A stretch of DNA of 37,027 nt, taken from the NCBI GenBank assembly GCA_029226955.1, contig JAQXZA010000026.1, forward strand, positions 1 through 37,027, read 5' to 3'. The position numbers and the translations under genes were made by a program. Below are positions 10,458 through 24,780 of this stretch, piece after piece. Numbering within the stretch: position 1 is the first letter of the stretch; each line of letters starts with the position of its first letter. The notes beneath the pieces are model-generated. The model ran no database searches. It was not told where the DNA came from and saw only the letters and a program-made list of their open reading frames with translations. The DNA is from Clostridia bacterium (GTDB lineage Bacteria; Bacillota; Clostridia; Oscillospirales; Acutalibacteraceae).

Positions 10458-12131
10458 ATGCAGCTTACAGGAGCAGAAATTATCGCTGAATGTCTTTTGG
10501 AGCAGGGCGTTGATACCGTATTCGGCTATCCGGGTGGAGCGGTTCTCAACATCTATGACGCTCTTTACAAATACAGCGACAAAATCACACACATTCTTTC
10601 TGCACACGAACAGGGTGCGGCTCACGCAGCCGACGGCTATGCAAGAACAACAGGAAAACCCGGTGTTGTTATCGCAACATCAGGCCCAGGTGCAACAAAC
10701 CTTGTAACAGGTATTGCAACAGCTTATATGGATTCAATTCCTATGGTTGCGATTACAGGTAATGTTTCAACAGACCTTCTTGCACGTGACAGTTTTCAGG
10801 AAGTGGATATAACGGGCATAACTATGCCGATAACAAAGCACAATTTTATCGTCAAAAATGTAGCTGACCTTGCAAACGTATTGCGTAAGGCTTTCAAAAT
10901 CGCTATGTCGGGCAGAAAAGGCCCTGTTCTTGTGGATATTCCGAAAGACGTTACAGGTGCAAAATTCGACTTTGAACCTGTTGCACCTCAGCCGATTATA
11001 AACGAAACATCATCTGAAAAAGCTGATTTTGAATCTGCCGCAAAAGCAATAAACAATGCAAAGCGTCCTATAATTTATATGGGCGGCGGTGTTGTAAGTT
11101 CTGACGCTGAAAAACAGCTTGTTGCATTTGCCGAAAAAATCGACTGTCCTGTTGCAACATCAATTATGGGACTTGGCGGATTTCCGGCGTCGCACCCACT
11201 GTTTATGGGTACAATCGGTATGCACGGCGGATATGAAACAGGTATGGCAACGGCAGACTGCGACCTTATGATTACAGTAGGTGCAAGATTTTCTGACCGT
11301 GTTGCCGGCGACAGAAACAAATTCGGCGAAAATGCAACCATAATTCAGCTTGATATAGACAAAGCCGAAATAAACAAAAACGTAAAAACAGATTACAACC
11401 TTATCGGCGACCTCAAAGACACTCTGCAAATACTTACAGATACAGTCGAAAAATCAGAACATAAAGACTGGATTGCAAAGGTTGAGGAATGGGGCAAAAA
11501 GTCATCAGTTTCCGAAACACCTATGTCCGACAAATACGCTCACCCATATCATATCATTGACGCTGTAAGAGAACTTGCAAGCGACGACGATATTATCGTA
11601 ACAGATGTAGGACAACATCAGATGTGGGTTTCACAGAAATACCGCTTTGAAAAGCCACGCACGTGGTGTACTTCGGGCGGACTCGGAACAATGGGTTACG
11701 GTCTTGGTGCGGCAGTAGGTTCAGCCGTTGCACACCCCGACAGAAAAGTCGTTCTTTTCACAGGTGACGGCAGTTTCCATATGAACCTCAACGAACTTGC
11801 AACCGTAAAATCCTATAATCTTCCTATTATCGTTGTTGTAATGAACAACACTGTTCTCGGAATGGTAAGACAGTGGCAAAAACTTTTCTACGGCAACCGT
11901 TTTTCTCAGACAGACCCGCACAGACAGACAGATTTTGTCGAACTTGCAAAGGCTTTCGGCATTGACGGTATGAGAATACACAACGACAGTGAAGTTGAAA
12001 CCGTACTGAAAAAAGCATTTGAAAACAATGCACCTGTCGTTGTTGACTGCTGTATTTCACCTGATGAAAATGTACTTCCGATGATTCCTCCGGGAAAAAC
12101 CGTTGACGATATGATTACAGAAATGGAGTGA
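10458..12131 (+). CDS. ilvB: Acetolactate synthase, large (catalytic) subunit
   Basis: 557-residue thiamine-diphosphate enzyme that makes 2-acetolactate or 2-aceto-2-hydroxybutyrate, the first committed step of valine, leucine and isoleucine synthesis. The order is PYR domain (catalytic Glu in SAHEQGAAHAADGYAR, then TSGPGATN), central FAD-type domain (GARFSDRVAG) and PP domain (GDGSFHMNLNELATV..., NNTVLGMVRQWQ). I chose the ATG at 10458 because GGAGG sits 7 bases upstream. The frame stays open to 10368, but that part is inside the T-box terminator. It is followed after 6 bases by ilvN, and the operon is controlled by the T-box leader. Confidence 0.97.
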   Translation: MQLTGAEIIAECLLEQGVDTVFGYPGGAVLNIYDALYKYSDKITHILSAHEQGAAHAADGYARTTGKPGVVIATSGPGATNLVTGIATAYMDSIPMVAITGNVSTDLLARDSFQEVDITGITMPITKHNFIVKNVADLANVLRKAFKIAMSGRKGPVLVDIPKDVTGAKFDFEPVAPQPIINETSSEKADFESAAKAINNAKRPIIYMGGGVVSSDAEKQLVAFAEKIDCPVATSIMGLGGFPASHPLFMGTIGMHGGYETGMATADCDLMITVGARFSDRVAGDRNKFGENATIIQLDIDKAEINKNVKTDYNLIGDLKDTLQILTDTVEKSEHKDWIAKVEEWGKKSSVSETPMSDKYAHPYHIIDAVRELASDDDIIVTDVGQHQMWVSQKYRFEKPRTWCTSGGLGTMGYGLGAAVGSAVAHPDRKVVLFTGDGSFHMNLNELATVKSYNLPIIVVVMNNTVLGMVRQWQKLFYGNRFSQTDPHRQTDFVELAKAFGIDGMRIHNDSEVETVLKKAFENNAPVVVDCCISPDENVLPMIPPGKTVDDMITEME

Positions 12132-12137
12132 TACACA

Positions 12138-12641
12138 ATGGCACATAAACAAATTATCAGTCTTTTTGTACACAACCACCCCGGCGTACTTTTGAGAGTT
12201 ACAAGCCTTTTCACACGTCGTGGATTTAACATTGACAGCCTTACCGTCAGTCCTGCCGGAACAGACGGATATTCAAGAATGACAATCCGCATTGAAGGCG
12301 ACGACAACGCTATTGAACAGTTCATAAATCAGGTTATGAAAATTGTTGATGTAAAGAAAGCTGAGGCACTTCCTCAGGATTCTTCCGTTGCGTCCGAGCT
12401 TATTCTCATAAAAGTAAGCACAAAAACTCATAACGACAATGACATTCTTGCCGTTACATCATCATATCACGCATCTCTTGTAAATATCGGCGAAAATTCA
12501 CTGACATTCCGTGCATCAGGAACACCTGACGAAATTGACACCCTTGTAAAAGAGCTTGACCGTTTTGGTATTCTTGAAATGGCAAGAACAGGAATTGCCG
12601 CTCTTGAAAACGGCGACAGATGCCTTAATAACAATTCGTAA
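12138..12641 (+). CDS. ilvN: Acetolactate synthase, small (regulatory) subunit
   Basis: 167 residues, partner of IlvB. The N-terminal ACT domain (IISLFVHNHPGVLLRVTSLFTRRGFNIDSLTVSP) binds the feedback inhibitor valine in this family. The C-terminal ~90 residues form the second regulatory domain (LILIKVSTKTHNDNDILAV...). It starts 6 bases after ilvB with GGAGTG in the intervening overlap, so the two are co-translated. The final codons and the TAA stop run straight into a heptanucleotide repeat tract, so the last few residues may be repeat-derived. ilvH is the name used for the paralogue in enterics; here ilvN is used generically. Confidence 0.95.
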   Translation: MAHKQIISLFVHNHPGVLLRVTSLFTRRGFNIDSLTVSPAGTDGYSRMTIRIEGDDNAIEQFINQVMKIVDVKKAEALPQDSSVASELILIKVSTKTHNDNDILAVTSSYHASLVNIGENSLTFRASGTPDEIDTLVKELDRFGILEMARTGIAALENGDRCLNNNS

Positions 12642-12696
12642 TGCGTAATTCGTAATGCGTAATTATTGTGTGAACCGTTAGTTTGTTTGCTAAGGG
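12636..12696 (+). repeat. Heptanucleotide repeat element at the ilvN stop codon
   Basis: Four NCGTAAT heptamers (12636-12663, TCGTAAT/GCGTAAT alternating) followed by a tail (12664-12696) containing GAACCGTTAGTTTGTTTGC. The tail closely matches the tails of the elements at 19167-19231 and 24737-24780. The ilvN stop TAA is inside the first heptamer. Confidence 0.9.
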
Positions 12697-12722
12697 CAGT
12701 CAGTACGAATAATTGAGAATTA

Positions 12723-12769
12723 AAAAAGCGTAACATTATTTTCTTGATAAGAAATAATGCTACGCTTTT
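12723..12769. terminator. Bidirectional terminator between ilvN and the phage operon
   Basis: A long stem: AAAAGCGTA/TACGCTTTT (12724-12732, 12761-12769), then after one mismatch CATTATTT/AAATAATG (12734-12741, 12752-12759). It is T-rich on both strands. It ends ilvBN (plus) and the phage-derived operon (minus). Confidence 0.9.
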
Positions 12770-12772
12770 ATT

Positions 12773-13255
12773 TTATGCCTGTTCTGACATATCTTTCCAT
12801 TCAAATTCAAAATAACAGGGCAAAAATGCCTTAACTTGCTGTTTTATCAGTTGCAGTTTATCATCAGAAACAGGTGTTGTACACTCAAAAATAAATTTCT
12901 TATTGTCACAATCCTCTTTAAGCGTTCCCTCTACTCCCCATATTTTAAGGCATTTCTGAAAACCGTCATAAGTAAAATCGTTGTTGCATACCGACAAAGC
13001 CGCAATAATGCTGTTTCTTCTGCTGTCTGTGCTGTCGTCAACAGGACATTTACAGATATATTTTTCACGCATTGTCAAGCCATAATTCTGTGCTGTGCTG
13101 ACAAAACATTCCCTTAAAAGTTCTTTAAGTGCATTATAGTAAATATCCAGACCCTCAGCATAAGCCATAAGTTCCGCATATACCATTTTGCCCTCAGCCG
13201 TTGAGTACAGACCTGTTTTTGAGAGTTTTTCGCTCATTGACTCAAATGCCGTCAT
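12773..13255 (-). CDS. XkdU/YmfQ-like baseplate protein (DUF2313)
   Basis: 160 residues, starting MTAFESMSEKL. The layout and position, directly after the baseplate J gene, fit the YmfQ/XkdU (DUF2313, gpI-like) family that joins the baseplate wedge to fibres. C-terminal segments SVCNNDFTYDGFQKCLKIWGV and FFEFEWKD-like (FEFEWKD) can be seen. I chose the ATG at 13255 because GGAGG is 8 bases upstream; the GTG at 13264 overlaps the ribosome binding site. It is the last gene of the operon. No tail fibre gene follows, which is unusual because fibres normally come next. Confidence 0.78.
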   Translation of the reverse strand: MTAFESMSEKLSKTGLYSTAEGKMVYAELMAYAEGLDIYYNALKELLRECFVSTAQNYGLTMREKYICKCPVDDSTDSRRNSIIAALSVCNNDFTYDGFQKCLKIWGVEGTLKEDCDNKKFIFECTTPVSDDKLQLIKQQVKAFLPCYFEFEWKDMSEQA

Positions 13256-13270
13256 AAAATGCACCTCCGT

Positions 13271-14332
13271 TTATTCGACTACGCCTGTTTGTGTTACGGT
13301 AACTGACGAAAGCAACGCAAGCTGTTTATATGTAATCGCTGTGTCGGTCATATAGTTAAAGCTATAATTTTCTACACCGTCAGTATGAAATACCACATCA
13401 CCAAGTGCAGAAAGTGTTATATTTTCTCCAACTGAAAGATTTTTGAAATATTCAGTAATATTATTTTCGACATCAGTTTTGACATCATCAAAGCTATAAC
13501 CGCTTTTTACTTGTATATTTACGCTTACGGCAACATTTACTGCTTGTGCCTTTAAAACAGAAACACTTATTCCGACCGCTTTGTTGTTTTTCAGCATTTC
13601 CTGAACACTTCTGTATGCAACGTCATCAGGAATACAACCTCTGCCGCCTACTGTAACAACAATAGTGTAGGTATTATCAGGCAGAACAGTTGCCGACTGT
13701 ATTCCCTCAACAGATTTTGCAAGGGAAATATAATATTCACTGTTTGCACCGTTCGGGATATTCTGCATACTGTACATAATTCTTTTTCTGAGTTGTTCGT
13801 CAGTTTCGTCATTTGTACCGCCACTGAATGACGACGAGTTTTGAATACTTATTCCGACAGAAAAATATGTAACAACGGTTGTAATGGATTTTAGCGGAAC
13901 ATTATACTGTGTGCCGCTGTTTTCTGCCTCAGCCTCAGCCATTACAAAATTTCCGCCACGAATTATTGTAGCGTCTTCTGAAATAATAAAATTCAATGCT
14001 CCGTCAGATGTTGTACATATAGTTCCTTTCGGCACTGTGACTTCATATTCAAGCGGTGTGTCAAGTTTGAACATAATCTGACCTGTTGCCTTGTCGCCTT
14101 TTCTGCGTGAAAGTCCCCTTTGCTGTGCGTGAAGTTCAAGCTGTTCACCGCTTGCGGTATTCGGGAACATCTGTTTTTTCAGCCAGTCAATATTTGATGT
14201 CAGCGAAAAAATCTCCCCCGCAAGAAGTCTTATACGAATACCAATGTCACTCACTCTGTCTGCCTCATATCCCGACAGTTCATAGAATTTATTGTTCATT
14301 CTTTCAAGAATTTCATCATAAGTACAGTTCAT
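13271..14332 (-). CDS. Baseplate J-like protein (XkdT family)
   Basis: 353 residues. Baseplate J (P2 gpJ / XkdT / T4 gp6-like) builds the wedge of contractile-type baseplates. Recognisable parts are GEIFSLTSNIDWLKKQMFPNTASGEQLELHAQQRGLSR-type N-terminus (about 30-75), the central FSGGTNDETDEQLRKRI motif (about 168-185) and ANSEYYISLAKSVEGIQSA (about 195-215). The ATG has AGGAGG 6 bases upstream. It lies between gp25-like and XkdU-like genes, as in PBSX. Such proteins are normally found only with a contractile sheath, which is missing here. Confidence 0.9.
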   Translation of the reverse strand: MNCTYDEILERMNNKFYELSGYEADRVSDIGIRIRLLAGEIFSLTSNIDWLKKQMFPNTASGEQLELHAQQRGLSRRKGDKATGQIMFKLDTPLEYEVTVPKGTICTTSDGALNFIISEDATIIRGGNFVMAEAEAENSGTQYNVPLKSITTVVTYFSVGISIQNSSSFSGGTNDETDEQLRKRIMYSMQNIPNGANSEYYISLAKSVEGIQSATVLPDNTYTIVVTVGGRGCIPDDVAYRSVQEMLKNNKAVGISVSVLKAQAVNVAVSVNIQVKSGYSFDDVKTDVENNITEYFKNLSVGENITLSALGDVVFHTDGVENYSFNYMTDTAITYKQLALLSSVTVTQTGVVE

Positions 14333-14344
14333 AGCTTTCCTCCT

Positions 14345-14677
14345 TTATATTCTGAGTTCAACGGCATTATTTACACCGTTTATGTCAACAAAGACAGTAA
14401 TTTTTCCGTCCATAATTTCCGTTTTTGTAACCTCAGCCTGTGGAATTTCAAACAGTGCTTTTCTTGCCTTTGCGGTAATTTCCCCACAGGCTGTCGGTGA
14501 TGAAATATCTATACTGTAAATTTCACTTCCGAGTGTACGGTCATAGACAAATTCTCCGAGCCTTGCCGACAAAATAATATATACTTTCTGTTTGAGTTCA
14601 TCATTTCCGCATATTCTGTATGCCTTGCCTGATGAATCCCTGTCAAAATCTCCATTTATATTAAGTGCCGTATCCAT
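14345..14677 (-). CDS. gp25/XkdS-like baseplate wedge protein
   Basis: 110 residues. Segments LKQKVYIILSARLGEFVYDRTLGSEI and a following ICGEITAKARKAL-like helix match the short gp25/gpW/XkdS lysozyme-like wedge family, which starts sheath and tube assembly in contractile tails. The start ATG follows GGGGAGG by 9 bases and lies 1 base after the upstream stop. Its placement before baseplate J is the standard order. Confidence 0.8.
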   Translation of the reverse strand: MDTALNINGDFDRDSSGKAYRICGNDELKQKVYIILSARLGEFVYDRTLGSEIYSIDISSPTACGEITAKARKALFEIPQAEVTKTEIMDGKITVFVDINGVNNAVELRI

Positions 14678-14678
14678 A

Positions 14679-15017
14679 TCAGTATTCCTCCCCGTTGATA
14701 ATAACTTTACCGTTGTTTTTCAAGAATATTGTCGCACCGCCAGCCGAATAAAATGCAATTTCTCCGGCTTCAAGTTCGTAATCAGTCGGCGGAATACGCA
14801 CACCTATGCACATCTGTCCCGAATCGGTAGGAATAACAACCGCCTCATCATCTTTTTGCGGAATGAATATCATTCCGGGCGGTGCGGCAAGTGCAAACTG
14901 ACCTGTACCGTTTGCGGCACTTGCAGAAATTCTTCTGTCGGCACTCTGTTTTATTTTGCCTGACGAGGCGGCAGTGTTTTTATTTTCGATTCTTGCAATA
15001 TTTTTTGAAAGCCACAT
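14679..15017 (-). CDS. gpV/XkdR-like baseplate hub protein (short)
   Basis: 112 residues. It contains an OB-fold-like middle (GMIFIPQKDDEAVVIPTDSGQMCIGVRIPP) and the GEIAFYSAGGATIFLKNNGKVIING segment typical of gpV or DUF2577-type hub proteins. It ends right after this segment, so no long beta-helical spike tip is encoded. Its ATG overlaps the stop of the preceding hub gene (TGATG), implying translational coupling. The exact family (gpV or XkdR) is uncertain. Confidence 0.72.
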   Translation of the reverse strand: MWLSKNIARIENKNTAASSGKIKQSADRRISASAANGTGQFALAAPPGMIFIPQKDDEAVVIPTDSGQMCIGVRIPPTDYELEAGEIAFYSAGGATIFLKNNGKVIINGEEY

Positions 15018-15940
15018 CAGTTTTGCACCTCCGTATAAAGTGTTGTTGTTTCTCCGTCAGAATTAAGATTATAGTGTATTTCATTTACTCTTAATTTTTT
15101 GCCGTTATCTTTGAGAATAACGGTTGCCCCTGTACCACACAGAATACAGCCGTTACATTCAAGCACAATCTGTTCGTAATTTCTGACGGATTTATCGAGA
15201 ATTTTTTTCGTATCAAGCACAGAGCGGCTTTCGCTGTCGATTGTATTTACATAACGGCGGCGGTGTACTCCGATTTTCTTTGCAAAATAATTTTCAAGCG
15301 GCATTTCATATCCGCCCGAAATACAGGTTCTTGCGATAATATCCGAAATTAAACAACTTCGTTTAAGAATACGCTTTTTTGAAATACATCTGTTTTTTCC
15401 GCTGTCAGAAATATAAACAACCTCGTCGTTTTTTCTGCCCGATATGTCTATAACACCGAAACAGTCAATTTTCGGAACAGTTTTCAGAAAACGCTTGCAA
15501 AACATTTCAAGAACTGCCCATTCACTCATTCCCTTTGATATTATCATTTCACCGTTAAAGGCTTTGTCCGTGCCGATATATTCTTTAAAGCCGAGTGGTT
15601 CAAGATGTCGTTTAAAAATAAGCGGCATTGACGGCATACAGTATGTCTGCGGCAATGCCTCGTTGTCAAGCAAAACACATTCAAGACTTCTTGCCGTCAG
15701 TGTAAGTAACATTCCGCCGCTTGTCCGCTGTTCGGTTTGTGTATCGACAAGACCGCTGAAAATTCTTTCGCCACCGTTTTCAACAATAAGCGAAACAAAA
15801 GGATAAACGCTTTCATTTACGGCAAAAACTACCGTCATACTGTCAGCCGGTGCGTCCTCAGACGAAACAAAATTTACACTCAGCGGATAATTCATTGTGC
15901 TTTTTCTGCCGTTGATGTCATTTAAAATATATGTCAGCAC
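15017..15940 (-). CDS. XkdQ / gpD-like baseplate hub protein
   Basis: 307 residues. N-terminal segments (YPLSVNFVSSEDAPADSMTVVF, GERIFSGLVDTQ) and the C-terminal LRVNEIHYNLNSDGETTTLYTEV are typical of the XkdQ/gpD/gp27-like hub that caps the tail tube. It starts at GTG 15940, which overlaps the stop of the LysM gene (GTGCTGA), with GAGGGTGG upstream. It lies in the usual XkdP-XkdQ order. The call rests on gene order and these partial motifs. Confidence 0.8.
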   Translation of the reverse strand: MLTYILNDINGRKSTMNYPLSVNFVSSEDAPADSMTVVFAVNESVYPFVSLIVENGGERIFSGLVDTQTEQRTSGGMLLTLTARSLECVLLDNEALPQTYCMPSMPLIFKRHLEPLGFKEYIGTDKAFNGEMIISKGMSEWAVLEMFCKRFLKTVPKIDCFGVIDISGRKNDEVVYISDSGKNRCISKKRILKRSCLISDIIARTCISGGYEMPLENYFAKKIGVHRRRYVNTIDSESRSVLDTKKILDKSVRNYEQIVLECNGCILCGTGATVILKDNGKKLRVNEIHYNLNSDGETTTLYTEVQN

Positions 15941-16455
15941 AAAGCCACCCTCTTTCCCTTTTCTATAAGCAAATCAGGGCGGCATACTGACGGATTAAGC
16001 CGTAAAAGTTCCTCAATTCTTACACCGTATCTGTACGAAATATCCCACAACGAGTTTGTTCCGTCTGATATTATGTCCGTGCAGTGTTCATTCAGTGACT
16101 TTTCAAAACTTTCAGTAAACTCAAAACTGTATTTAATAACACCGTCAATATCTTGTGCAAGAAGTTCAAGCGATGAAAAAATCGCATATATCGGCTTTTG
16201 CGACGGAATATACAACATTCCGCCGCCACCCGTTTCAAATACTTTTTTCAGTCTTTCAAAATCCTCAATACAGTTTTCGCCGCAAAATTCGCCCTCACCG
16301 CTTATTGTCCGTCCGTTTTTTCCCATATCGGTAACGGCATTATTCCCGAACGGTATTTTCTGTCGTGAAATTTTGCGTGAATGAAAAATCCTTATAAATG
16401 ACGGATTTATCGGAAACACAAAATCCCTGAAACTCATTTTTCCGTCAGTATTCAT
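15934..16455 (-). CDS. LysM baseplate protein (XkdP-like)
   Basis: 173 residues. Residues 1-120 match the N-terminal part of XkdP-like proteins (FPINPSFIRIFHSRKISRQKIPFG, then GEGEFCGENCIEDFERLKKVF). Residues ~125-173 are a LysM domain (GTNSLWDISYRYGVRIEELLRLNPSV), which binds N-acetylglucosamine polymers. In PBSX-type tails this protein lies next to the tape measure gene. Here it follows a 50-residue gene instead. The ATG at 16455 has GGAGGAAGTAA upstream. Confidence 0.87.
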   Translation of the reverse strand: MNTDGKMSFRDFVFPINPSFIRIFHSRKISRQKIPFGNNAVTDMGKNGRTISGEGEFCGENCIEDFERLKKVFETGGGGMLYIPSQKPIYAIFSSLELLAQDIDGVIKYSFEFTESFEKSLNEHCTDIISDGTNSLWDISYRYGVRIEELLRLNPSVCRPDLLIEKGKRVALC

Positions 16456-16597
16456 TTACTTCCTCCTCTGCATTAAGTGTGCGGTCATACCTCATCATAT
16501 CCCTGTGTACAAGTTCCGAAACCTTGCTGAGTTCTGCCGTTTCATCTGATGTAAAGTTTTCTTTTATGGTCGGATTTATGTTTTTTATCTCTTTCAC
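16445..16597 (-). CDS. 50-residue protein occupying the tape-measure/chaperone slot
   Basis: Starts VKEIKNINPT and ends EEEVNEY, mostly charged and helical. The GTG start at 16597 overlaps the stop of the tube-like gene (GTGA) and has GGAGGAAACA directly upstream. Its own stop overlaps the start region of the LysM gene by 11 bases, whose ribosome binding site is the GAGGAGGAAG within this gene. In PBSX the XkdN chaperone and the XkdO tape measure occupy this position. No homologue is recognised. It could be a relic of an XkdN-like chaperone. Confidence 0.68.
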   Translation of the reverse strand: MKEIKNINPTIKENFTSDETAELSKVSELVHRDMMRYDRTLNAEEEVNEY

Positions 16598-16977
16598 TCT
16601 GTTTCCTCCACATTCATTTTAAGGGCGGTCAAACTCACCTTTTCCCTGAAACGCTCACTGTCTGCAAAGCTGAAAATTTCATTCCAGATACAGCCTGTAA
16701 GAGTGATTTTTGCCCCGTCAATTTCCATAGTTACGGTAAAATTGTCAAGGTCATAGAAATTACAGTTTTCAAAAGGCTTTCTGAATTTCAGGGCGGTCAA
16801 TGACGCTTTATATATTTTTCTGCCCTTTATTTGTGCAATATCGTCATTACAAAAACAACTTCTTACGCTGTGAATATCGCAAAGTGTATTTATTTCCACT
16901 TTTTCCGCCTGAAAAACCTGTTTTCCGTCGATTGAAATACAAACATCACGTCCGTTTATCGTTTCAATTTCTTTCAA
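16594..16977 (-). CDS. Tail-tube-like protein (XkdM-type)
   Basis: 127 residues, predicted almost entirely beta-stranded (DVCISIDGKQVFQAEKVEI, IKGRKIYKASLTALKFRKPF, YDLDNFTVTMEIDGAKITLTGC). This matches the gp19/XkdM-type tube fold by secondary structure and position. The start is TTG at 16977, one base after the upstream stop, with GGGGGTGAG before it. If it is a tube, the absence of both a sheath gene and a tape measure is notable. It could also be a tail terminator or another beta-sandwich protein. Confidence 0.62.
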   Translation of the reverse strand: MKEIETINGRDVCISIDGKQVFQAEKVEINTLCDIHSVRSCFCNDDIAQIKGRKIYKASLTALKFRKPFENCNFYDLDNFTVTMEIDGAKITLTGCIWNEIFSFADSERFREKVSLTALKMNVEETE

Positions 16978-17394
16978 TCACTCACCCCCGAAATCAATAA
17001 CCGTTTCCCTCAGACCGAATTTCATAGTAATTCTGTACCCGAAAATCTTTTTGTCGTAATTACATTTTTCAACGGACACGGAAGAAATCATCTTTTCGCT
17101 GTCAAGTTTCATAATTTCAATGCAAATATCCTTTGCCTTTTCTTCACAGAAACTTCCCCCCTCTGATTCATCAACCGCAACGGTTACAAGCATACTTTCC
17201 GACATCATTTCGCAGTTTTTAACACCGATAAGAACCGTGTCGGTTTTTGAATATTCCGTTGAAAAGGTCACATAAGGTTTTTTGACAGGATATTTTACCG
17301 TCGTATTTTCATAAGCCTTTACAAGTTCAAAATCCGCAAAAGCACTGTCGCTTTTTGCCCGTTCAAAGATTTTTTCAAGAAAACTCCCTGTCAC
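16978..17394 (-). CDS. Head-tail junction / tail terminator-like protein
   Basis: 138 residues from GTG 17394 (GAGGGAG upstream; 4 bases after the previous stop). The frame extends 6 codons further to a TTG at 17412, but that start has no ribosome binding site. The mixed alpha/beta layout (N-terminal helix FLEKIFERAKSDSAF, then strands YPVKKPYVTFSTEY, SMLVTVAVDESE, FGYRITMKFGLR) and the position before the tube-like gene match SPP1 gp17 / XkdJ-type tail completion proteins. Assignment is by gene order and shape. Confidence 0.6.
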   Translation of the reverse strand: MTGSFLEKIFERAKSDSAFADFELVKAYENTTVKYPVKKPYVTFSTEYSKTDTVLIGVKNCEMMSESMLVTVAVDESEGGSFCEEKAKDICIEIMKLDSEKMISSVSVEKCNYDKKIFGYRITMKFGLRETVIDFGGE

Positions 17395-17398
17395 CCTC

Positions 17399-17728
17399 TC
17401 ACTCTCCCTCAATAACTTTTCTTATATAGGATTTTATGTATGAACCCGTTCTGCACGAAAATTCATCAATCCATAAGATTATATAGCGGTTTTTGCCGTC
17501 GTTTACGCTGTCGCCACGCCTTGCATATTTCACAAGTTCACCGTCACAGTACATAGTGTATCTGTCAGGTTCACTTCTGCCCTCAAAGGTATTTTCAATG
17601 CCGCCCTCCGCATTTTTCTCATATCTCACAGGATAAATAACTGCATTACCTTTTCTTATGCCATTTGATGTACAAATTGTGACTTCCGTGCCGATTTTAT
17701 CAACGGCACTTTTACAAACATTCTTCAT
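17399..17728 (-). CDS. Head closure (stopper)-like connector protein
   Basis: 109 residues with a beta-barrel-like pattern (GTEVTICTSNG, DRYTMYCDGELVKYARRGD, NRYIILWIDEFSC). The size and position between the helical connector and the tail completion gene are those of SPP1 gp16/XkdH-type head-closure proteins. GAGAGG precedes the ATG. There is no strong family motif, so this is a positional call. Confidence 0.62.
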   Translation of the reverse strand: MKNVCKSAVDKIGTEVTICTSNGIRKGNAVIYPVRYEKNAEGGIENTFEGRSEPDRYTMYCDGELVKYARRGDSVNDGKNRYIILWIDEFSCRTGSYIKSYIRKVIEGE

Positions 17729-17731
17729 AAA

Positions 17732-18094
17732 TCAAATCCTCTCAAACACAAAACTTCCGTCATCAAAAACCTCACTTACTGCCGAAAACGCATTTCTGCA
17801 TAATTTTTCAGCTGAATCAAGCTGTTTTTCGCTGACAGGCTTAACAGATATATCGCCTACTTTTATTTCACTTCCGTCACCGTCAGTCAGACACCACAGA
17901 ATATATCCGTAATATGCAAGTGTTGCGGCGGCAAATGTCAGTCTGCCGCCGTAAACACCCATATCCGTTCCGCTTTTTGTGTGCGACTTAACATATTCAT
18001 AAGCATTAAGGCACATAAAGCGGAATTTTATAATATCTTCTGCCGCAAGTCCTGAAAGACGGGTGAATATATCAACAACATCTTCAATATTCAA
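17732..18094 (-). CDS. Helical head-tail connector protein (gp6/gp15-like)
   Basis: 120 residues, mainly helical (IEDVVDIFTRLSGLAAEDIIKFRFMCLNAYEYV, LTFAAATLAYYGYILWCL). This is the layout of HK97 gp6/SPP1 gp15-type ring proteins that sit below the portal. The start is TTG at 18094 with GGGAGG 9 bases upstream; the ATG nearby is out of frame. It follows the capsid gene by 21 bases, as in PBSX and SPP1-like modules. Confidence 0.66.
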   Translation of the reverse strand: MNIEDVVDIFTRLSGLAAEDIIKFRFMCLNAYEYVKSHTKSGTDMGVYGGRLTFAAATLAYYGYILWCLTDGDGSEIKVGDISVKPVSEKQLDSAEKLCRNAFSAVSEVFDDGSFVFERI

Positions 18095-18115
18095 ACCGTC
18101 ATTCCTCCCACAAAA

Positions 18116-19126
18116 TCAGTATGAAAGCACCTTTGCGGAATCGGGGAATATCTTTGCAAAACCGGCAATACAGCTTATTGAGGCTCTTTCAAGCTGTCTG
18201 TCGATAAGTTTGTCATAGTCGGTTATGATACCACCAGCCTGAACCATTTCCAAAGCACAGTTTTTGTCAAGACCTATCATTTTTGTTCCGCTCATTGACG
18301 GAATGTGAAGAAGTGACGCACCCATAGGTGTAATCATTTTTCCTGTACCCTGAAAATTCAGTCCAGCCTGAGAATCTTTCATTTCACTCATTGAAAGAAT
18401 TTCCTGTACAACTCCTGTCGGTGCAAGAATAGTATTAAGCTGATAAGGCGAAAGTCCAGCCCAGAGTTTAAGCATATCCTTGTATGTAAGCGTTCCTGTT
18501 GATGACGCTGAAATTACCGTTGCGGCATTGTCATTGCCGTCACCGTTTATAAGCACGTCAACAGCGTCTTTAAGCTGTTCTCTTGCTATATATGCACCAA
18601 TCTGACGAAGTGTTACAGTGAACAGGTCAAGTCGCTGAAACTTCACCGCCTCATAAGACGCAACAAGCATACGACCACGCTTATTGAGCTTTACAAGGTT
18701 TTCCTGAGTTTTTACGACAGTCTGCGGAAGTGCAGCACCCTCCATAACAGGTTTTAGTGACTTATCGTCCTCATTCGGAACAGACACAACAGAACGGTAG
18801 TCCATACCGTCAATTATTGTTTTTGCCGCAATAATATCGGGAAGATAATCTGCATTTTCCATACCCTGTCTTACTGCCCTTGAAACATATTCAGGGAAAA
18901 GTGCCGCTGAATTTGATGTTTCAAAGAATTTCTGAACGGAATCCGAATGTTCTCCGCCGACTTTTATATCGTATCTTTTAAGCTGACGCTGATATGCGTC
19001 AAGTCCTTCAAGCTGAGTACCTTTGTAGTTTTCTGACGGGTCAAGTTCTTCAAGAACATCAGTCAGACTTTTTCCGCCTACACCATACATACCCTTTTCA
19101 AGTTTTATAGAATCATAAAATGCCAT
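18116..19126 (-). CDS. Major capsid protein, HK97-fold type
   Basis: 336 residues. Typical features are the N-terminal arm (residues 1-60), then KFFETSNSAALFPEYVSRAVRQGM, SVVSVPNEDDKSLKPVMEGAALPQ (E-loop region), the long spine-helix stretch LFTVTLRQIGAYIAREQLKDAVDVLINGDGN, and an axial-domain region LSPYQLNTILAPTGVVQEIL ending LERASISCIAGFAKIFPDSAKVL. The order after the protease/scaffold and decoration-like genes is standard. The ATG has AAGGAG upstream. The length matches HK97-fold capsids, so shells could assemble. Confidence 0.88.
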   Translation of the reverse strand: MAFYDSIKLEKGMYGVGGKSLTDVLEELDPSENYKGTQLEGLDAYQRQLKRYDIKVGGEHSDSVQKFFETSNSAALFPEYVSRAVRQGMENADYLPDIIAAKTIIDGMDYRSVVSVPNEDDKSLKPVMEGAALPQTVVKTQENLVKLNKRGRMLVASYEAVKFQRLDLFTVTLRQIGAYIAREQLKDAVDVLINGDGNDNAATVISASSTGTLTYKDMLKLWAGLSPYQLNTILAPTGVVQEILSMSEMKDSQAGLNFQGTGKMITPMGASLLHIPSMSGTKMIGLDKNCALEMVQAGGIITDYDKLIDRQLERASISCIAGFAKIFPDSAKVLSY

Positions 19127-19166
19127 AATATTTAATCTCCTTTAAAAATTATTTTCAATATTTTAT

Positions 19167-19231
19167 CTTTAAACGAACAAACTGACGCTTTTCACAACAA
19201 TTACGCATTACGCATTACGAATTACGCATTA
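19167..19231 (-). repeat. Heptanucleotide repeat element inside the phage operon
   Basis: On the minus strand, four NCGTAAT heptamers (19231-19201) are followed by a tail (about 19200-19167) with GAAAAGCGTCAGTTTGTTCG, like the tail at 12664-12696. The TAA stop of the decoration-like gene lies at its start. It separates that gene from the capsid gene. Confidence 0.88.
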
Positions 19232-19567
19232 AAGAATAATTCCTGCGTATTTGTTGACAGTATCGACATCAACAACAAGAATATCTCTGCCGTTTGTTGA
19301 GTCAGCCTGAATTTTTCCGTCATTACTGCCTGAAATTTTGCTGTAACCTACGTTAAGAGTGCCGGTGTATTTTACTTTTATGTAGCCGTTAAGCTGTACT
19401 GCGGCATAACCGTCACGAACACTTACGCAAATTCCGCAAAATGCGGTACTGTTTGTTGCCTTAACCTTGCCGTTTGACGACATTTCAACAGGCATACCTG
19501 TCTTTACTGTGCTGTCAGCCTCAAAGGTGACAATTCCCTCGTTATAACCGTTAAAACATACATTCAT
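19229..19567 (-). CDS. Head decoration-like protein
   Basis: 112 residues, predominantly beta (GIVTFEADSTVKTGMPVEM, DGYAAVQLNGYIKVKYTG, NGRDILVVDVDTVNKYAGII). Size, composition and place between the protease/scaffold and the capsid suit a capsid decoration or DUF2190-like protein. GGAGG precedes the ATG. Its TAA stop is part of the heptamer repeat tract, so its C-terminal end might have been reset by the repeat. The family assignment is tentative. Confidence 0.62.
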   Translation of the reverse strand: MNVCFNGYNEGIVTFEADSTVKTGMPVEMSSNGKVKATNSTAFCGICVSVRDGYAAVQLNGYIKVKYTGTLNVGYSKISGSNDGKIQADSTNGRDILVVDVDTVNKYAGIIL

Positions 19568-19582
19568 TATGAAAAATCCTCC

Positions 19583-20527
19583 TTAAATATTTTTGTAAAG
19601 TGTGTTGTTGCTTTTTTGTGTGCTGTTTTCCTTAAAAAGCTGCGGTTTTAAGGGTAAAACATTCATAGCCTTTTTTTCAAAAGCCGAGCGAAATTCTTTA
19701 AGCTGTTCAACCGTCATATTTTCCGCAACGCTTTCAAGTGATTCTCCGCTGATTTCAGGGAATACCACAGCCGCATATTTTCTGACATCTTCCGCAAGCT
19801 GTCGGCGGTACAGTTCACCGTCGTGTGCCTTTTCGGTAAGTGTGCGGATTTTCTCCGAAATAGCCTTTACTTCTTCTGCGGTAAAGGTCTGTTCCTCGCC
19901 CGTTTGAAGTCTTTTTTCAATATCCAATAGTTTTTTACCTCCGTTTTTATAAGATTTGATTACTCCTGCACCTTTTTGTGCCGGAACAGCGACAAATGAC
20001 CATTCATAAACATCAGAAACTCCGTCAAGTGTCGCATAACATAACTTTTTGCCGTATTTTCTGCCCTTTATATGTTTACAGTCGTAAATATCCCCACCGC
20101 AAATTGAACAAATACGCTTTTTAACGGCACAACCTACACTGACTTCTTTTTTGATACCGCTGTCGAGTTCAAGAATAAAATCCCTGTTGCTGTCGCTTAT
20201 CGGCATATAAGCCCTTGCACAAAGTCTGTAATACGGCTGACCGTCGGAAGTCAGCTTATCTTTGACATTTTCCAGTCTGCACGAAAAAATTCTTGCATTC
20301 TGATTTTTGCTTTCGGGATTGTGGTCAAATATCCCGGTAACACCGACAAAAAGTTTTTCTAGACTTTTAAGCGACTCAACCGAAAAGCGTTCAAAATCCC
20401 TGTCAATCTCGTTGTCGCATAAAACAACAGAAAACACATACACTTCGTCTTTACTCAGATTCCGCCTTGTAAATCGGTTTATCTGTTCAAGTTCATTGTC
20501 AAGCGGTTTTCCGCATAAATCCTCCAA
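19583..20527 (-). CDS. Prohead protease with C-terminal scaffold (XkdF-like)
   Basis: 314 residues from a TTG start at 20527, 5 bases past the portal stop; AGGAAAGGGTG lies upstream. The frame is open to 20641, but that would overlap the portal gene by 110 bases. The protease half carries a candidate catalytic His (GVTGIFDHNPES) and Ser (KKEVSVGCAVK). It also carries a cysteine knuckle, CSICGGDIYDCKH, that could bind metal, and DVYEWSFVAVPAQKGAG. The last ~110 residues are helical and charged (FTAEEVKAISEKIRTLTEK), a scaffold-like tail. It prepares the capsid shell. Activity is not proven. Confidence 0.76.
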   Translation of the reverse strand: MEDLCGKPLDNELEQINRFTRRNLSKDEVYVFSVVLCDNEIDRDFERFSVESLKSLEKLFVGVTGIFDHNPESKNQNARIFSCRLENVKDKLTSDGQPYYRLCARAYMPISDSNRDFILELDSGIKKEVSVGCAVKKRICSICGGDIYDCKHIKGRKYGKKLCYATLDGVSDVYEWSFVAVPAQKGAGVIKSYKNGGKKLLDIEKRLQTGEEQTFTAEEVKAISEKIRTLTEKAHDGELYRRQLAEDVRKYAAVVFPEISGESLESVAENMTVEQLKEFRSAFEKKAMNVLPLKPQLFKENSTQKSNNTLYKNI

Positions 20528-20531
20528 AAAA

Positions 20532-21671
20532 TCACCCTTTCCTGTTTCTTGTTTCGATTTCCTCAGCCTGTGCGGAATAAAGCCTTGCCTTTGCAAGTTC
20601 AACCTCGTCCTGTAAGTTGATGTTATCCCACACAATGTCAAAATTTCTGTTTATGCCGTGAATTTTAAGATAAATACTGCATATCTTACGTATTGCCGTT
20701 TCAAGAACACGTCTGTAATATTCAAGCTCACTTGTGAGAATATCCGCTTGCTGACTTGACATTTTTTCGGTTGACGACCACGAGAGTCCCAGAAGAAACG
20801 GCGGTATTGACAGCTTTGCGACAATCTGTTCAAGTATCTGACGGACAGGCACCTGACTGTCGGGAATCTGATTGTCAGCACCTATTACTTTAATGCTTAC
20901 GTCCCCGACTGAAACAAAGTCCTTAGGTTCACGGCTTTTCATAGCCTTGCTCCATTCGGACGCAATCTGCATTGCCCTTTCCTTAGAAAATCCCCTGTCG
21001 CTGTCTGATGGTTTGTATGTTACGGCAAAGCGTATGTTTCCTATTCTTTCCCAGTTTGTGCCGGTTGCATTGAGAATTTTAAGAAGAATATCACTCACAA
21101 ACGGCAAGCCTTTTAAAATTGACGTGCCATAAATATTACTTGCCTCAGGCATAATTGCACTGCACAGCACAAGTTCGGGATATTTTACAGGAATATGTTC
21201 TCCGCTGTCGCTTATTGTAAAAATCCTTACATCAAACGGACTGTTCTCCGCCGACAATTCAACATCATCAAGCGACGCATTGTAAAGAGCCGCAACCTCG
21301 TTTCCAGACGAATCAAGCACAACCTCGCCTACCGCTGTACCATAAGTTAAAAGCTGTTCAAGATATGATGAAACAAAACTTTCTATACCTGTCTGACAAC
21401 TGTTCACTCTGACATTTTTCAAAAAGCTGTTCAGCATATTTTCAACACGAATGTCGCCACATTCAGCCTTAAAGCCACCCACAAGCCTTATTATCTTGTA
21501 TATTGCCGCATCAATTATCGGCACAGCCTCACGCAATGATTTATAAAGGTGCTTTTCGTATGGTGTTATCGGCGAATAATTCCGCAAATCTGAAAACGGG
21601 TGTACAGAATATTTTCCGTCACTCACAGTCTGAACACAAAAGTCATTATTTTTATTTTTCTTTTTAAACAA
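20532..21671 (-). CDS. Phage portal protein
   Basis: 379 residues. Motifs include YKIIRLVGGFKAECGDIR-like wing, GTAVGEVVLDSSGNEVAALYNAS, RIGNIRFAVTYKPSD, and the crown-side VRQILEQIVAKLSIPPFLLGLSW ... ILTSELEYYRRVLETAI. These are characteristic of SPP1/PBSX-type portals, the dodecameric ring through which DNA is packed. It lies just after the terminase large subunit, 19 bases away. The length is at the short end of portal families, and all expected regions seem present. Confidence 0.87.
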   Translation of the reverse strand: MFKKKNKNNDFCVQTVSDGKYSVHPFSDLRNYSPITPYEKHLYKSLREAVPIIDAAIYKIIRLVGGFKAECGDIRVENMLNSFLKNVRVNSCQTGIESFVSSYLEQLLTYGTAVGEVVLDSSGNEVAALYNASLDDVELSAENSPFDVRIFTISDSGEHIPVKYPELVLCSAIMPEASNIYGTSILKGLPFVSDILLKILNATGTNWERIGNIRFAVTYKPSDSDRGFSKERAMQIASEWSKAMKSREPKDFVSVGDVSIKVIGADNQIPDSQVPVRQILEQIVAKLSIPPFLLGLSWSSTEKMSSQQADILTSELEYYRRVLETAIRKICSIYLKIHGINRNFDIVWDNINLQDEVELAKARLYSAQAEEIETRNRKG

Positions 21672-21690
21672 ATCAGTCTTTCACCTCCGT

Positions 21691-22935
21691 TTATCTGTCT
21701 GACGCAAATGCAAAAATATCGTCGTCGTCATCAAGTGCTGTCGAAACGAAATATCTCACATCGTCCATAGCGTGATCATTTTCTTTGAGTGGTGCGTCTT
21801 TTCCGCCGCTTTCCCACCTGTACATACCAAATTCCCTTATGCAGTCGGTACAGTTTTTGCAAATTCTTATACTGCCCTGTTTCAGTGCCGTACTGACACG
21901 GCGTATTCCGTCAAGAACATTATTTTTTGCGGGAATTACTCTGTAATCGCCGTGCCGCCTTATCACTTCAATAAAACTTGCGGCTGACGGGTCAACAATA
22001 ATTTCCGATATATTTCTGCCGCCGATAAGTTCGCACAAACCACTGTAATGTTCCTCGTCTGTTCTCGACACTCCCTCAGTGCGTGAATTATAATAATATT
22101 CGTCAATTCTGTACCACACACCGCCACAAAGTCCCCACAATCCGAATGATGACGGATTGACTGTTCCGTAATCGCAAGAAACAATATATCTGTCAAATTC
22201 ACCTGTCGGAATATCGGCAAACATTTTTTCATCAGACATAAACGGATAGACAAGACCTTCTGTTGCCACCCATTTTCCGAGAACATAACGCTGATAAAAA
22301 CTGCCCGAATAAAGTTTTTTGTAGCGGTCAAGCATTTTCTTTGACAAAGACGGATTATCCTCCATACTGAAATGGATATAAAGCATATTTTTTTCCTTTG
22401 CTTTTTTAACCCATTCACGACAGAACCAGTGCTGAGGATATTCGGGATTGCAGTTGAACCACAGCTTTGAATTTTCAACAGAACACCTTGCAACCGCCTG
22501 TTCCACAAACGACCTCGGCATTAACACAACCTCATCAAAGAGTACTCCACACAACGTCATACCCTGAATAAGTGCTGCCGAACTTTCATCACGACCGCCG
22601 AAAAAGTAAAATCTGTTTTTGTGTTCTTTGAACGAAACCTCAAAATAATTTTCGGACATTCGTTCATAAACATCAAAGCCAAGCTCCGACAAAATCGGCA
22701 TAAGCGGCATAATAACATTCCTTTTTACAGAGCGGATAGTCTTTCCGCATAAAGCAAAACTGCCGCCGTCAAAACTGAAAGTTGCCCACAAAACAAATGA
22801 AACACTCATACAAAGAGTTTTTCCGCTACGCACTGCACCGTCACAGATAATTCCGTCAAAATCCGAAAATTCACTGTCGGGACACCACCAATTAAGCACC
22901 TTAATCTGTTTTTGTGAAAAAGCCTTATAGTTCAT
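21691..22935 (-). CDS. Terminase large subunit (PBSX/XtmB type)
   Basis: 414 residues. The motor half has the Walker A-like GAVRSGKT (about 33-40) and Walker B VLFDEVV (about 132-138). The nuclease half has acidic residues in VSCDYGTVNPSS, EIIVDPSAASF and MDDVRYFV, fitting the RNase H-like fold. The enzyme packs DNA into the head. The start overlaps the terS stop (ATGA), so they are coupled. No key residue appears lost. Confidence 0.92.
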   Translation of the reverse strand: MNYKAFSQKQIKVLNWWCPDSEFSDFDGIICDGAVRSGKTLCMSVSFVLWATFSFDGGSFALCGKTIRSVKRNVIMPLMPILSELGFDVYERMSENYFEVSFKEHKNRFYFFGGRDESSAALIQGMTLCGVLFDEVVLMPRSFVEQAVARCSVENSKLWFNCNPEYPQHWFCREWVKKAKEKNMLYIHFSMEDNPSLSKKMLDRYKKLYSGSFYQRYVLGKWVATEGLVYPFMSDEKMFADIPTGEFDRYIVSCDYGTVNPSSFGLWGLCGGVWYRIDEYYYNSRTEGVSRTDEEHYSGLCELIGGRNISEIIVDPSAASFIEVIRRHGDYRVIPAKNNVLDGIRRVSTALKQGSIRICKNCTDCIREFGMYRWESGGKDAPLKENDHAMDDVRYFVSTALDDDDDIFAFASDR

Positions 22936-23429
22936 TGTTCATCACCCGATTCACCGCTGTCTGATTTTTTAAGACCTCCAAGCAAAGCCCTGTAAAATTC
23001 CGAGCCTGTACTGTCAGTACCGTTTTCGGAATTTTCAAGTTTTTCAAGTGCCTTTATTCTGTCAAAGAATTTTATTTCCATAGCGTTGTCCTTAGGGCGT
23101 TTTATTTCCGCAACATTGAATAAATCGTATTTATCGAGATTTTCTCCGTGCGGATTTTCCGAAAACATCAGCTTTATTGCGTCCGAAACATTCCCGAATG
23201 CAAGCCGTTCATAACCAAGACTTGCAAGCTGTCTGGGATTTTGTTTTTTCTCTTTGAAAAGCCTTTCAATTTCATCATTGATTTCTTTCCTTTGAAGAAG
23301 TGCAAGACCGCTTTTTCCGGGCTGACTGTAACCGGCATAAGCCGCCGATTCCCTTATACAGCCGCTGTTTGCATAAAATCTGCAAAATTCCTTTTCTCTT
23401 GAAGTCAGACTGTGCAATTTTCTCTGCAT
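22932..23429 (-). CDS. Terminase small subunit (XtmA type)
   Basis: 165 residues. The N-terminal LTSREKEFCRFYANSGCIRESAAYAGYSQPGKSGLALLQRKEINDEI is the standard helix-turn-helix DNA-binding domain of terminase small subunits. Acidic residues dominate the C-terminus. It is the first gene of the operon, with AGGAGG 8 bases before the ATG. It starts about 40 bases after a minus-strand terminator; there is little room for a separate promoter. Confidence 0.9.
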   Translation of the reverse strand: MQRKLHSLTSREKEFCRFYANSGCIRESAAYAGYSQPGKSGLALLQRKEINDEIERLFKEKKQNPRQLASLGYERLAFGNVSDAIKLMFSENPHGENLDKYDLFNVAEIKRPKDNAMEIKFFDRIKALEKLENSENGTDSTGSEFYRALLGGLKKSDSGESGDEQ

Positions 23430-23463
23430 TATTTAAACCTCCTTTCAACAATCCTCTGAAACG

Positions 23464-23494
23464 CAAAAAAATTCGACCATCAGAGGTCGAATTT
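23464..23494 (-). terminator. Intrinsic terminator between gerQ-like gene and terS
   Basis: On the minus strand a 10-bp stem AAATTCGACC/GGTCGAATTT with a 6-base loop (arms 23494-23485 and 23478-23469) is followed by T-rich sequence. A second, imperfect hairpin lies directly at the gerQ-like stop (23535-23562). Confidence 0.82.
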
Positions 23495-23560
23495 CATATT
23501 TTATTAACATAATATTAACGTTTTATTTATATTTAAGGCGATTTTCAGGCAAAATCACCC

Positions 23561-24223
23561 TTAATAATAGAATTTCATAAACTTTATATTATAAAAATCA
23601 CACGCAAGAATATCCGTTGTATCAAGCGGATTTAAAAGTATAAAATTTGCCCCGACAGCGACAAGATAGCCGTCTTTTTCAACTATGTTGTTTGTACCGA
23701 TAAGAAATTCAACGTGAACACGTCTGCCCACCTGTGAGCGTATAAAACCGTTAAGATACTGAATATTATGCGCATTTATCGGGTAAGGCTGATTATATTC
23801 CCTTATCGGCATAAAATCATTATTTCTGCACGACGGACAAAAGTTTGTGTCGCCGTCTGCACCTGTATTTTCAAACGCTTCAACAGACATCGGTGCAAAT
23901 CTGCACCGCCCTCTTGCACACGTTTCAAGGTCAATCTGATTTTCATTAACAGGATTATTTTCCGTACTTGTTTCAGGCATATTCACATTTTCGCTTTCCA
24001 TAGTATTCTGTTCATTGTTTATGCTATTCATTTCATTTACGGCATTTTCAGTGTTTTCGGTATTTTCTCTGTTGTTCAGTGCAAAATTGTTGCTTGACGC
24101 AATTTGTTCAAGTGATGGAGGCTGAACATTCATTGATTTACTGCGTGAATTTACATTTTCACTGCGGTTAAGACCGTAAATTCTTGCAAGGTCTATGCGG
24201 TTGTTGTTTATGCTGCCGTTCAC
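23561..24223 (-). CDS. gerQ: GerQ-like spore coat protein with long disordered N-terminus
   Basis: 220 residues from a GTG start (GGGGTG upstream, 13 bases after the cwlJ-like stop). The C-terminal ~70 residues (YLNGFIRSQVGRRVHVEFLIGTNN ... LVAVGANFILLNPLDTTDILACDFYNIKFMKFYY) resemble the GerQ coat domain. In Bacillus, GerQ anchors CwlJ in the spore coat and is needed for germination. Residues 30-100 are a low-complexity Asn/Glu-rich stretch, and residues 102-132 carry four cysteines (C102, C107, C129, C132). The next gene upstream is cwlJ-like, as in Bacillus. Family name is by resemblance and synteny. Confidence 0.72.
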   Translation of the reverse strand: MNGSINNNRIDLARIYGLNRSENVNSRSKSMNVQPPSLEQIASSNNFALNNRENTENTENAVNEMNSINNEQNTMESENVNMPETSTENNPVNENQIDLETCARGRCRFAPMSVEAFENTGADGDTNFCPSCRNNDFMPIREYNQPYPINAHNIQYLNGFIRSQVGRRVHVEFLIGTNNIVEKDGYLVAVGANFILLNPLDTTDILACDFYNIKFMKFYY

Positions 24224-24235
24224 AAATATTCACCC

Positions 24236-24736: not shown

Positions 24737-24780
24737 GCGTAATTCGTAATTATTTATGCGGACGGTTAGTCTGTATGTCG
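24737..24780 (+). repeat. Heptanucleotide repeat element in the spoIID-cwlJ gap
   Basis: Two NCGTAAT heptamers (24737-24750) and a tail TATTTATGCGGACGGTTAGTCTG (24751-24780) related to the 12664 and 19167 tails. Confidence 0.85.

Follow-up and report, generated by a model that had tools for sequence, protein, structure and literature searches.

A 37,027-nucleotide stretch of DNA from a Clostridia bacterium of the Acutalibacteraceae (contig JAQXZA010000026.1 of assembly GCA_029226955.1; the whole stretch is called the window here) carries a block of 17 phage-derived genes on its minus strand, from 23429 down to 12773. We are almost certain that this element is domesticated, and we consider it probable that it is a vertically inherited gene transfer agent (GTA) packaging host DNA. 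The features by which we judge it a GTA are intact phage-derived head, portal and terminase genes, a tree resembling that of the host, purifying selection, and the lack of replication and integration genes with the cluster; DNA packaging, release and transfer are what we infer for it. A preliminary description of the window had proposed a domesticated particle with a very short tail, a GTA-like element, or a decayed phage with its missing parts elsewhere. dN/dS, the host-like tree, shared flanks and the lack of orphan parts favor the first two of these together.

Inheritance with the host chromosome

Using the portal as marker and query in genome searches, we found the element in 228 of 398 genomes of the family and in 82 of 135 genera; 225 of the positive genomes hold a single match and three hold two. 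From the names, we take the sampled family to be GTDB Acutalibacteraceae and the order to be Oscillospirales. In a sample of the order, 70 of 394 genomes from six family codes are positive, with one match each. A sample of the class gave 5 positives among 341 genomes, none of them from outside the order. At least 596 stretches on named contigs encode portal relatives; among the best 80 are Pseudoruminococcus massiliensis and Anaeromassilibacillus sp. An172, along with many assemblies from rumen metagenomes.

For 39 genomes, covering three family codes, we set a tree built from TerL, portal, protease, and capsid beside a tree of a single host marker, rpoB. The two have 27 of 36 splits in common, compared to a mean of 0.2 and a maximum of 2 when labels are shuffled. 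Nineteen of the 20 element branches with support of at least 95 are present in the rpoB tree, 17 of 18 in the reverse direction, and no supported branch is contradicted. The Mantel correlation is 0.75, a value reached in none of 2000 permutations. These results show that the element is inherited vertically with the host chromosome and is not moving.

A different view is that these loci are a widespread, active family of temperate phages or satellites with a narrow host range, whose lysogeny genes go unrecognized or are supplied in trans. The element is indeed catalogued as viral: 400 IMG/VR stretches encode a portal relative (those listed, 80 in number, come from contigs 3-31 kb long), the IMG/VR loci inspected hold the same cluster, and five human-gut records named 'Bacteriophage sp.' have portals of 49-54% identity. 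Serine recombinases also lie near two loci, L334 and L342 (L, G and f mark our own labels for loci, genomes and family codes). Such a family fits poorly, however, with the single copy in nearly every positive genome and with tree congruence free of supported conflict, and in L334 a DegV gene lies between the recombinase and the element. Moreover, one of the five records, MT835508 (MT835508.1, 46.7 kb; locus L284), carries the element from TerS to the tail terminator, with no recognized baseplate genes, amid chromosomal genes for NrdD, Rnf, SecY, adenylate kinase, RpoA, and L17. The pooled scan behind this covered 37 proteins, 27 of them from this record; of the remaining ten, nine were also scanned one by one. 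This 'phage' record is a stretch of a bacterium's chromosome, and virus catalogues should be read with caution, given the IMG/VR stretches with a portal relative and the same cluster in the loci inspected. We consider an active phage family very improbable.

Purifying selection and retained active-site residues

Pooled dN/dS was computed from 21 close locus pairs (concatenated identity >88%) for 18 gene families, the 17 of the window plus a sheath found in relatives. The values are 0.058 for capsid, 0.080 for TerL, 0.088 for portal, and 0.11-0.26 for the rest, including the tail genes; a 50-residue gene has 0.26, from 8 pairs. These values show purifying selection on the gene families among relatives of the window, and the head and packaging genes are more strongly constrained than the tail genes. 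The preliminary description had inferred selection and named dN/dS as the check; the pooled values fall well under 1 in every family.

The presumed active sites are also retained. Among loci with the column filled, TerL keeps the Walker A residue K39 in 136 of 136, D134/E135 in 138 of 138, and the acidic nuclease residues D255, D315, and D391 in 139 of 139. The presumed protease residues are found in 141 of 142 loci (H107) and in all 142 (S168). The catalytic roles of these TerL and protease residues are known from their families. As far as these alignments show, the element has kept what would be the residues of an active packaging motor.

Missing parts in the window and its genome

Scans against Pfam, PHROGs, and NCBIfam found no sheath, tail chaperone, tape measure, fiber, lysis, or integrase gene among the 17 block genes, in line with the preliminary description, which had listed most of these as absent from the block. 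The gp25-like initiator is the only block protein touching a sheath-related family; otherwise there is no match to a sheath or tape measure family. Neither the 17 block genes nor the 13 other window proteins scanned include replication or integration genes, no integrase was found among these 30 proteins, and no direct repeats bracketing the element appear among the 20 of 23 repeat families listed for 12000-24300.

Searching 20 whole genomes for the sheath family PF04984 gave matches in six and none in 14, the window genome among the latter. The same search recovered the short element sheath of G116 and missed the known one of G097 (L048), whose single match sits on another contig; the absence of ordinary sheaths elsewhere in the window genome is firm, that of short, divergent sheaths weaker. 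The window genome also has no match to the fiber-like family of relatives, so the search for orphan genes suggested in the preliminary description turned up neither part. In four genomes, ordinary-sized sheath frames (428-513 aa) lie away from a sheathless element, on other contigs in G213 and G051 and far off on the same contig in G152 and G396.

These searches bear on the possibility that the block is the decaying remnant of a temperate phage whose tail genes are elsewhere or already lost. The sheath, tape measure, and fiber genes are missing, a few matches in other genomes contain stops, and the genes of one locus, L045, are spread apart. Against decay, pooled dN/dS is 0.06-0.26 in every gene family, tail genes included; the element is single-copy with a host-like phylogeny, no frame in the window is broken, and no orphan sheath or fiber-like gene was found, with short divergent sheaths less firmly excluded. 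On dN/dS and the trees we rejected a decaying prophage, the least probable of the readings we weighed, and the earlier suggestion that missing parts lie elsewhere is not supported.

Locus L045 itself, in a 1.4 Mb genome (G041; L114 is the same contig), has recognizable element genes, mostly parted by gaps of ~0.2-1.3 kb. This spacing differs from the other loci read and marks a spreading or decaying copy.

Tail forms among relatives

We read 153 loci with per-gene profiles and kept 142 with distinct portals, dropping 11 that were duplicates or had no portal. The 142 are not a random sample: 64 come from the best 80 of the named contigs, 77 from chosen regions of positive genomes, and one is the window. 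By form, 76 have a baseplate without a sheath (the window included), 23 have a sheath, 13 are heads only, and 6 keep only XkdQ of the baseplate. Another 12 are tailless with a fiber-like domain fused to the tail terminator, two of which (L115, L258) have only ~2 kb of sequence past the fusion; the last 12 end near a contig edge and are unclassed.

The element sheath of relatives is short, 340-372 aa, and sits between the terminator and the tube, at exactly the place missing in the window. Of four sheaths tested, three pass the Pfam cut-offs for PF04984 and PF17482 and the fourth matches more weakly; phrog_279 is found in all four. The preliminary description had noted that baseplate J and gp25 proteins go with sheath genes, which fits the likely ancestor. 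Judged by gene order and homology, these comparisons show the window block to be a sheathless form of an element with sheathed relatives. On the locus tree (FastTree, with some long branches) the sheath requires at least seven changes. This count does not separate gains from losses, but loss on several occasions explains the pattern more simply, because both the gene place and the sequence are common to the sheathed loci.

The gene at the tape-measure position, too, has probably been shortened in sheathless loci. It carries a similar C-terminal arginine-tyrosine motif in sheathed and sheathless forms, and the motif-bearing frame has a median length of 170 aa in 16 of 23 sheathed loci compared to 51 aa in 56 of 76 sheathless ones, with early starts inflating a few of these lengths. 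The window protein of 50 residues is probably the C-terminal remnant of the longer protein of sheathed relatives. Were this gene to act as a tape measure does in fixing the length of the tail, its 50 residues would leave room for one or two rings of tube protein. The preliminary description had placed a 50-residue gene in the only gap of the block; it is there, and it is a conserved gene, present across loci and under the selection given above.

Tail loss goes further in other relatives. We searched for baseplate J in 18 genomes: 14 with head-only, fused, or XkdQ-only elements, two portal-positive with unread loci (G648, G700), and two portal-negative (G038, G066). Among the 14, ten gave no match (one of them only 81% complete), three gave weak matches in frames of 720-1020 aa (G360, G181, G255), and G003 gave a match on another contig. 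Because the ten have no baseplate J match, their tails are lost rather than moved.

Two groups of reduced loci stand out. Seven (L043, L049, L051, L090, L093, L111, L130) have no tail: past the head genes, only an XkdN-like chaperone remnant is left. The first three have downstream genes in common, with nusA and infB by reading of L043. Six loci of family code f26 (L163, L164, L165, L167, L168, L208) keep XkdQ as the sole baseplate protein; baseplate J was searched in five of the six genomes behind these loci (all but G536, of L168) and had no match.

A rival view is that the particle kills rather than delivers. A PBSX-like killing particle or tailocin would pack host DNA without delivering it and would kill sister strains; PBSX is reported not to inject its DNA. 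The large terminase is of the PBSX family, and the hub, gp25, J, and YmfQ families are still under selection, as this view would have it. But the locus has no sheath and the genome no PF04984 match, and therefore there would be no contraction; head and packaging genes are more constrained than the tail, although a killing device should keep its tail; and 12 related loci keep the head with no tail at all. We regard a killing particle as unlikely.

Another alternative accepts domestication and assigns the particle a different use for the host: it might export DNA to build matrix or share nutrients, for example, or hinder phages that infect the cell. Domestication is supported while transfer is inferred, and the window genus has no fiber-like domain, both of which suit this view. 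On the other side, the LysM baseplate hub and wedge proteins are still selected, and the tailless relatives keep a fiber-like domain on the terminator, which points to cell attachment. Such a use can overlap with gene transfer, and the odds of the two are not mutually exclusive; taken by itself it is rather unlikely, if the likeliest of the alternatives.

Taking the gene transfer reading forward, we lean toward a broader scenario. A single GTA lineage may have been domesticated once, at or near the base of this order of gut and rumen Clostridia, and its contractile tail dismantled stepwise, several times: from a full tail with a shortened sheath, to the sheathless stub seen in the window, to no tail, with a fiber-like domain fused onto the terminator at the portal vertex. 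Tail length would be evolving toward zero because delivery to kin replaced infection.

A proposed model for the particle

The comparison is best read as descent from a contractile-tailed ancestor with a PBSX-family terminase. The line of the window element would have lost the sheath and tail chaperone, a separate fiber-like gene, and all but a remnant of the gene at the tape-measure position, although the tree by itself does not distinguish loss from gain. Capsids would assemble and the terminase would fill them with fragments of the host chromosome. The connectors and terminator would then close the head, and a stub of one or two tube rings would be built on the LysM hub and the gp25/J/YmfQ baseplate. 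Particles would be released through lysis genes coded elsewhere. The LysM hub may help to fix the particle to the cell wall of a relative, and that cell would take up the DNA.

A number of points count against this model and the GTA reading behind it. The particle, its packaged DNA, and transfer in this organism are deduced from genes alone, and the tail genes may have a function unrelated to DNA delivery. The element was not found in 170 of the 398 family genomes, and is therefore dispensable. A stop falls inside the matched stretch in 7 of the 70 matches in the order sample and in at least two of the family sample. Kin phages exist, as the portal has a distant relative (27% identity) in a Microcystis phage, and the two loci near serine recombinases are two of six IMG/VR loci inspected. 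The neighborhoods of the element differ from genus to genus, and at least one of 86 flanking proteins around 25 loci, scanned out of 94 frames, matches a PHROG integrase. As for selection, the window is in none of the 21 pairs, having no close enough partner, and four pairs come from its genus clade; several pairs have loci in common, and the highest single value is 0.75, for connector 2 in one pair. Neither a lysis gene nor a fiber-like gene was found in the locus, to which the search for holin and endolysin was confined. The fiber-like family gave no match in six window-genus genomes tested, in a search that recovered four of four known carriers.

Gene content of the block

The host genome of the window comprises 2.6 Mb in 150 contigs, of which the window is contig 26. 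The open reading frame listing gives 17 uninterrupted minus-strand frames, as the preliminary description had counted them. Its terminase, portal, capsid, and PBSX-like hub set were borne out by matches in Pfam, PHROGs, and NCBIfam, the gpV-like protein being named by place.

The block opens with the terminase small subunit TerS (165 aa; 22932..23429; PF03592, 6e-11; phrog_51) and the large subunit TerL, with ATPase and nuclease (414 aa; 21691..22935; PF03237), which scores 192 bits against the NCBIfam model TIGR01547 'PBSX family', cut-off 105. The portal follows (379 aa; 20532..21671; phrog_30703, 2e-135), and then the candidate head maturation protease/scaffold, 352 aa as listed (19583..20641), which matches phrog_16951, of unknown function, and weakly phrog_8158, a head maturation protease. 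This assignment rests on H107 and S168, from family knowledge, and on gene place. As listed, the frame overlaps the portal by 110 bases, and most relatives have ~310-330 aa; the overlap probably arises because the listed TTG start is too early, with the true start near 20530. For this pair, the listing departs from the overlaps of one to a few bases given in the preliminary description. A head decoration-like virion protein (112 aa; 19229..19567; phrog_4588 virion structural protein, 1e-17) precedes the major capsid protein (336 aa; 18116..19126; PF25209, 3e-16; phrog_3922, 9e-102). Comparing the capsid and portal sequences with solved structures gave nothing useful.

Two putative head-tail connectors, both conserved across loci and given their role by place, come next: connector 1 (120 aa; 17732..18094), with no useful library match, and connector 2 (109 aa; 17399..17728), with none. 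They are followed by the tail terminator (144 aa; 16978..17412) and the tail tube protein (127 aa; 16594..16977), whose AlphaFold2 model (pLDDT 89.6) is predicted to fold as a contractile tail tube. Foldseek matches the model to the phage 812 neck (2e-5) and the phiCD508 tail (5e-4); the nearest structures are the tails of phage 812, phiCD508, Mu, and monocin. The 50-aa protein at the tape-measure position (16445..16597) is a conserved gene ending in the RRY-type motif.

The hub region begins with an XkdP-like protein with LysM (173 aa; 15934..16455; PF07157, 4e-6; PF01476 LysM, 5e-4, just under cut-off; phrog_184 baseplate hub), which also has a weak match to a PHROG endolysin family, poorer than its baseplate hub match. 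Next are an XkdQ-like baseplate hub (307 aa; 15017..15940; phrog_177, 8e-8) and a gpV-like spike candidate, so called from its place (112 aa; 14679..15017; phrog_25991, of unknown function). The gp25-like wedge/sheath initiator (110 aa; 14345..14677) matches phrog_120 (2e-10) and, under cut-off, PF10934 'sheath initiator' (4e-5). The Baseplate J wedge (353 aa; 13271..14332; PF04865, 1e-44) is the sole match to that family in its genome, and the last gene encodes a YmfQ/XkdU-like baseplate protein (163 aa; 12773..13264; Gp48/YmfQ PF10076, 1e-6, under cut-off; phrog_521).

On one side, the block is flanked by ilvB/ilvN on the plus strand. On the other, a frame with no Pfam family over cut-off is followed by minus-strand genes for a cell wall hydrolase and SpoIID. 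The gerQ label given earlier to 23561-24223 found no backing (no Pfam match at E 1, no NCBIfam match at E 0.01). Among 19 loci of the window-genus clade with a readable downstream flank, the window counted, ilvN/ilvB adjoins YmfQ in six, and in eight the flank gene belongs to a family found ~4.5 kb past ilvN in the window, a family that may be multi-copy. The synteny check proposed in the preliminary description thus has a divided outcome: flanks are common to many relatives in the window genus and differ between genera. We rejected a link to sporulation, through the cell wall hydrolase and SpoIID beside the element, as a general feature; upstream neighbors barely recur, three of the window's four nearest being found in no other locus and one in a single other locus.

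Promoter and terminator scans were uninformative on mechanism. A 14-base unit, AATTACGCATTACG, occurs in seven copies in the window at up to one mismatch, with none expected in shuffles. Its sites (7811-7838, 12637-12664, 19199-19219, and 24738-24751) fall between genes; one spacer is that separating the capsid gene from the decoration gene, and another site is beside ilvN. Two sites together form a 55-base inverted repeat.

Comparison with known systems

If the GTA reading is true, the element is an old, widespread gene-sharing device and not a broken virus. The intermediate stages suggest a path from phage to host organ in which replication and integration genes go first, then the sheath, the tape measure, and the whole tail, with capsid and packaging the most constrained. 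The element would also be a candidate genetic basis for the random host DNA lately found in gut virus-like particles, and the question is testable in named isolates, P. massiliensis and Anaeromassilibacillus sp. An172. To our knowledge, few GTAs are known outside Alphaproteobacteria, and our literature search, judged from listings and including Acutalibacteraceae with gene transfer agent, found no published description of this element.

Among known particles, PBSX, encoded by the xkd genes of Bacillus subtilis, resembles the window in its terminase, with the window TerL over the NCBIfam PBSX-family cut-off. The window order of hub, XkdQ, gpV, gp25, J, and YmfQ also follows the xkd order. PBSX has sheath, tape measure, fiber, and lysis genes, whereas the window's 17 genes include none of these. 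RcGTA of Rhodobacter capsulatus has a non-contractile tail with a tape measure; in contrast, the window element probably descends from a contractile ancestor and retains no tape measure. The predicted folds of tail tube and terminator resemble those of phiCD508, R-type bacteriocins (diffocin), and monocin, and the window differs from phiCD508 and diffocin in lacking both sheath and tape measure. R-type bacteriocins lack heads, and monocin is not contractile. A tailocin or contractile injection system would have a sheath and no capsid or terminase; the window has a capsid and a terminase and no sheath.

The other relevant systems are from gut Clostridia, including Faecalibacterium, which we take from GTDB naming to be in the same order as the window. 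An 18-base 16S probe for Faecalibacterium found no match in samples of 25 and 394 genomes and was uninformative. Of 30 genomes (27 of f26, including the already positive G731, and three of f14), 13 matched the TerL profile. Ten loci around TerL matches (L189-L198) were tried as a link to the Faecalibacterium element FpGTA and rejected: in all ten the element profiles recognize a TerL homologue and nothing else, which points to other phages; two of the ten, L189 and L191, were read. No link to FpGTA was made through these f26 and f14 loci.

A second compact element lies between housekeeping genes in f26, at 4647-12366 of L199 and in L200. Its order is TerS, a related TerL, a different portal, scaffold, capsid, a hub-like protein, and a GH25-like lysozyme, with labels other than TerL taken from reading the L199 sequence and not from a library. 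The portal of this type, common to L199 and L200, is present in 2 of 41 f26 genomes, and the element looks like another gene-transfer-like cluster.

A 2026 paper (PMC12946183) reports that particles from Ruminococcaceae and other gut Clostridia, with small capsids in Ruminococcaceae and Oscillospiraceae, contain random host DNA, 4.6-8.9 kb in length, and states that PBSX has been reported not to inject its DNA. It also describes FpGTA of Faecalibacterium prausnitzii, whose 10.5 kb operon encodes TerS, TerL, portal, scaffold, and capsid and has no replication genes (PMC12946183). Its particles are ~40 nm across with no visible tail and contain ~9 kb of DNA, with reads of 8.4-8.9 kb spread over the host genome (PMC12946183). 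FpGTA is the closest published case, likened to the window element by description and not by sequence. The accessions reported for the FpGTA portal (RCH50851) and capsid (RCH50849) (PMC12946183) suggest one gene between them, as in those loci here that have no decoration gene. FpGTA I is described in the same paper as ten genes with a separate second operon for baseplate, fiber, receptor-binding protein, holin, and endolysin (PMC12946183), whereas the window has 17 genes in one block, with the baseplate in that block and no lysis gene among them. By this analogy, the window element would be a system of the FpGTA kind, in which selection maintains the packaging machinery, the tail is a stub, and the phage life cycle is gone.

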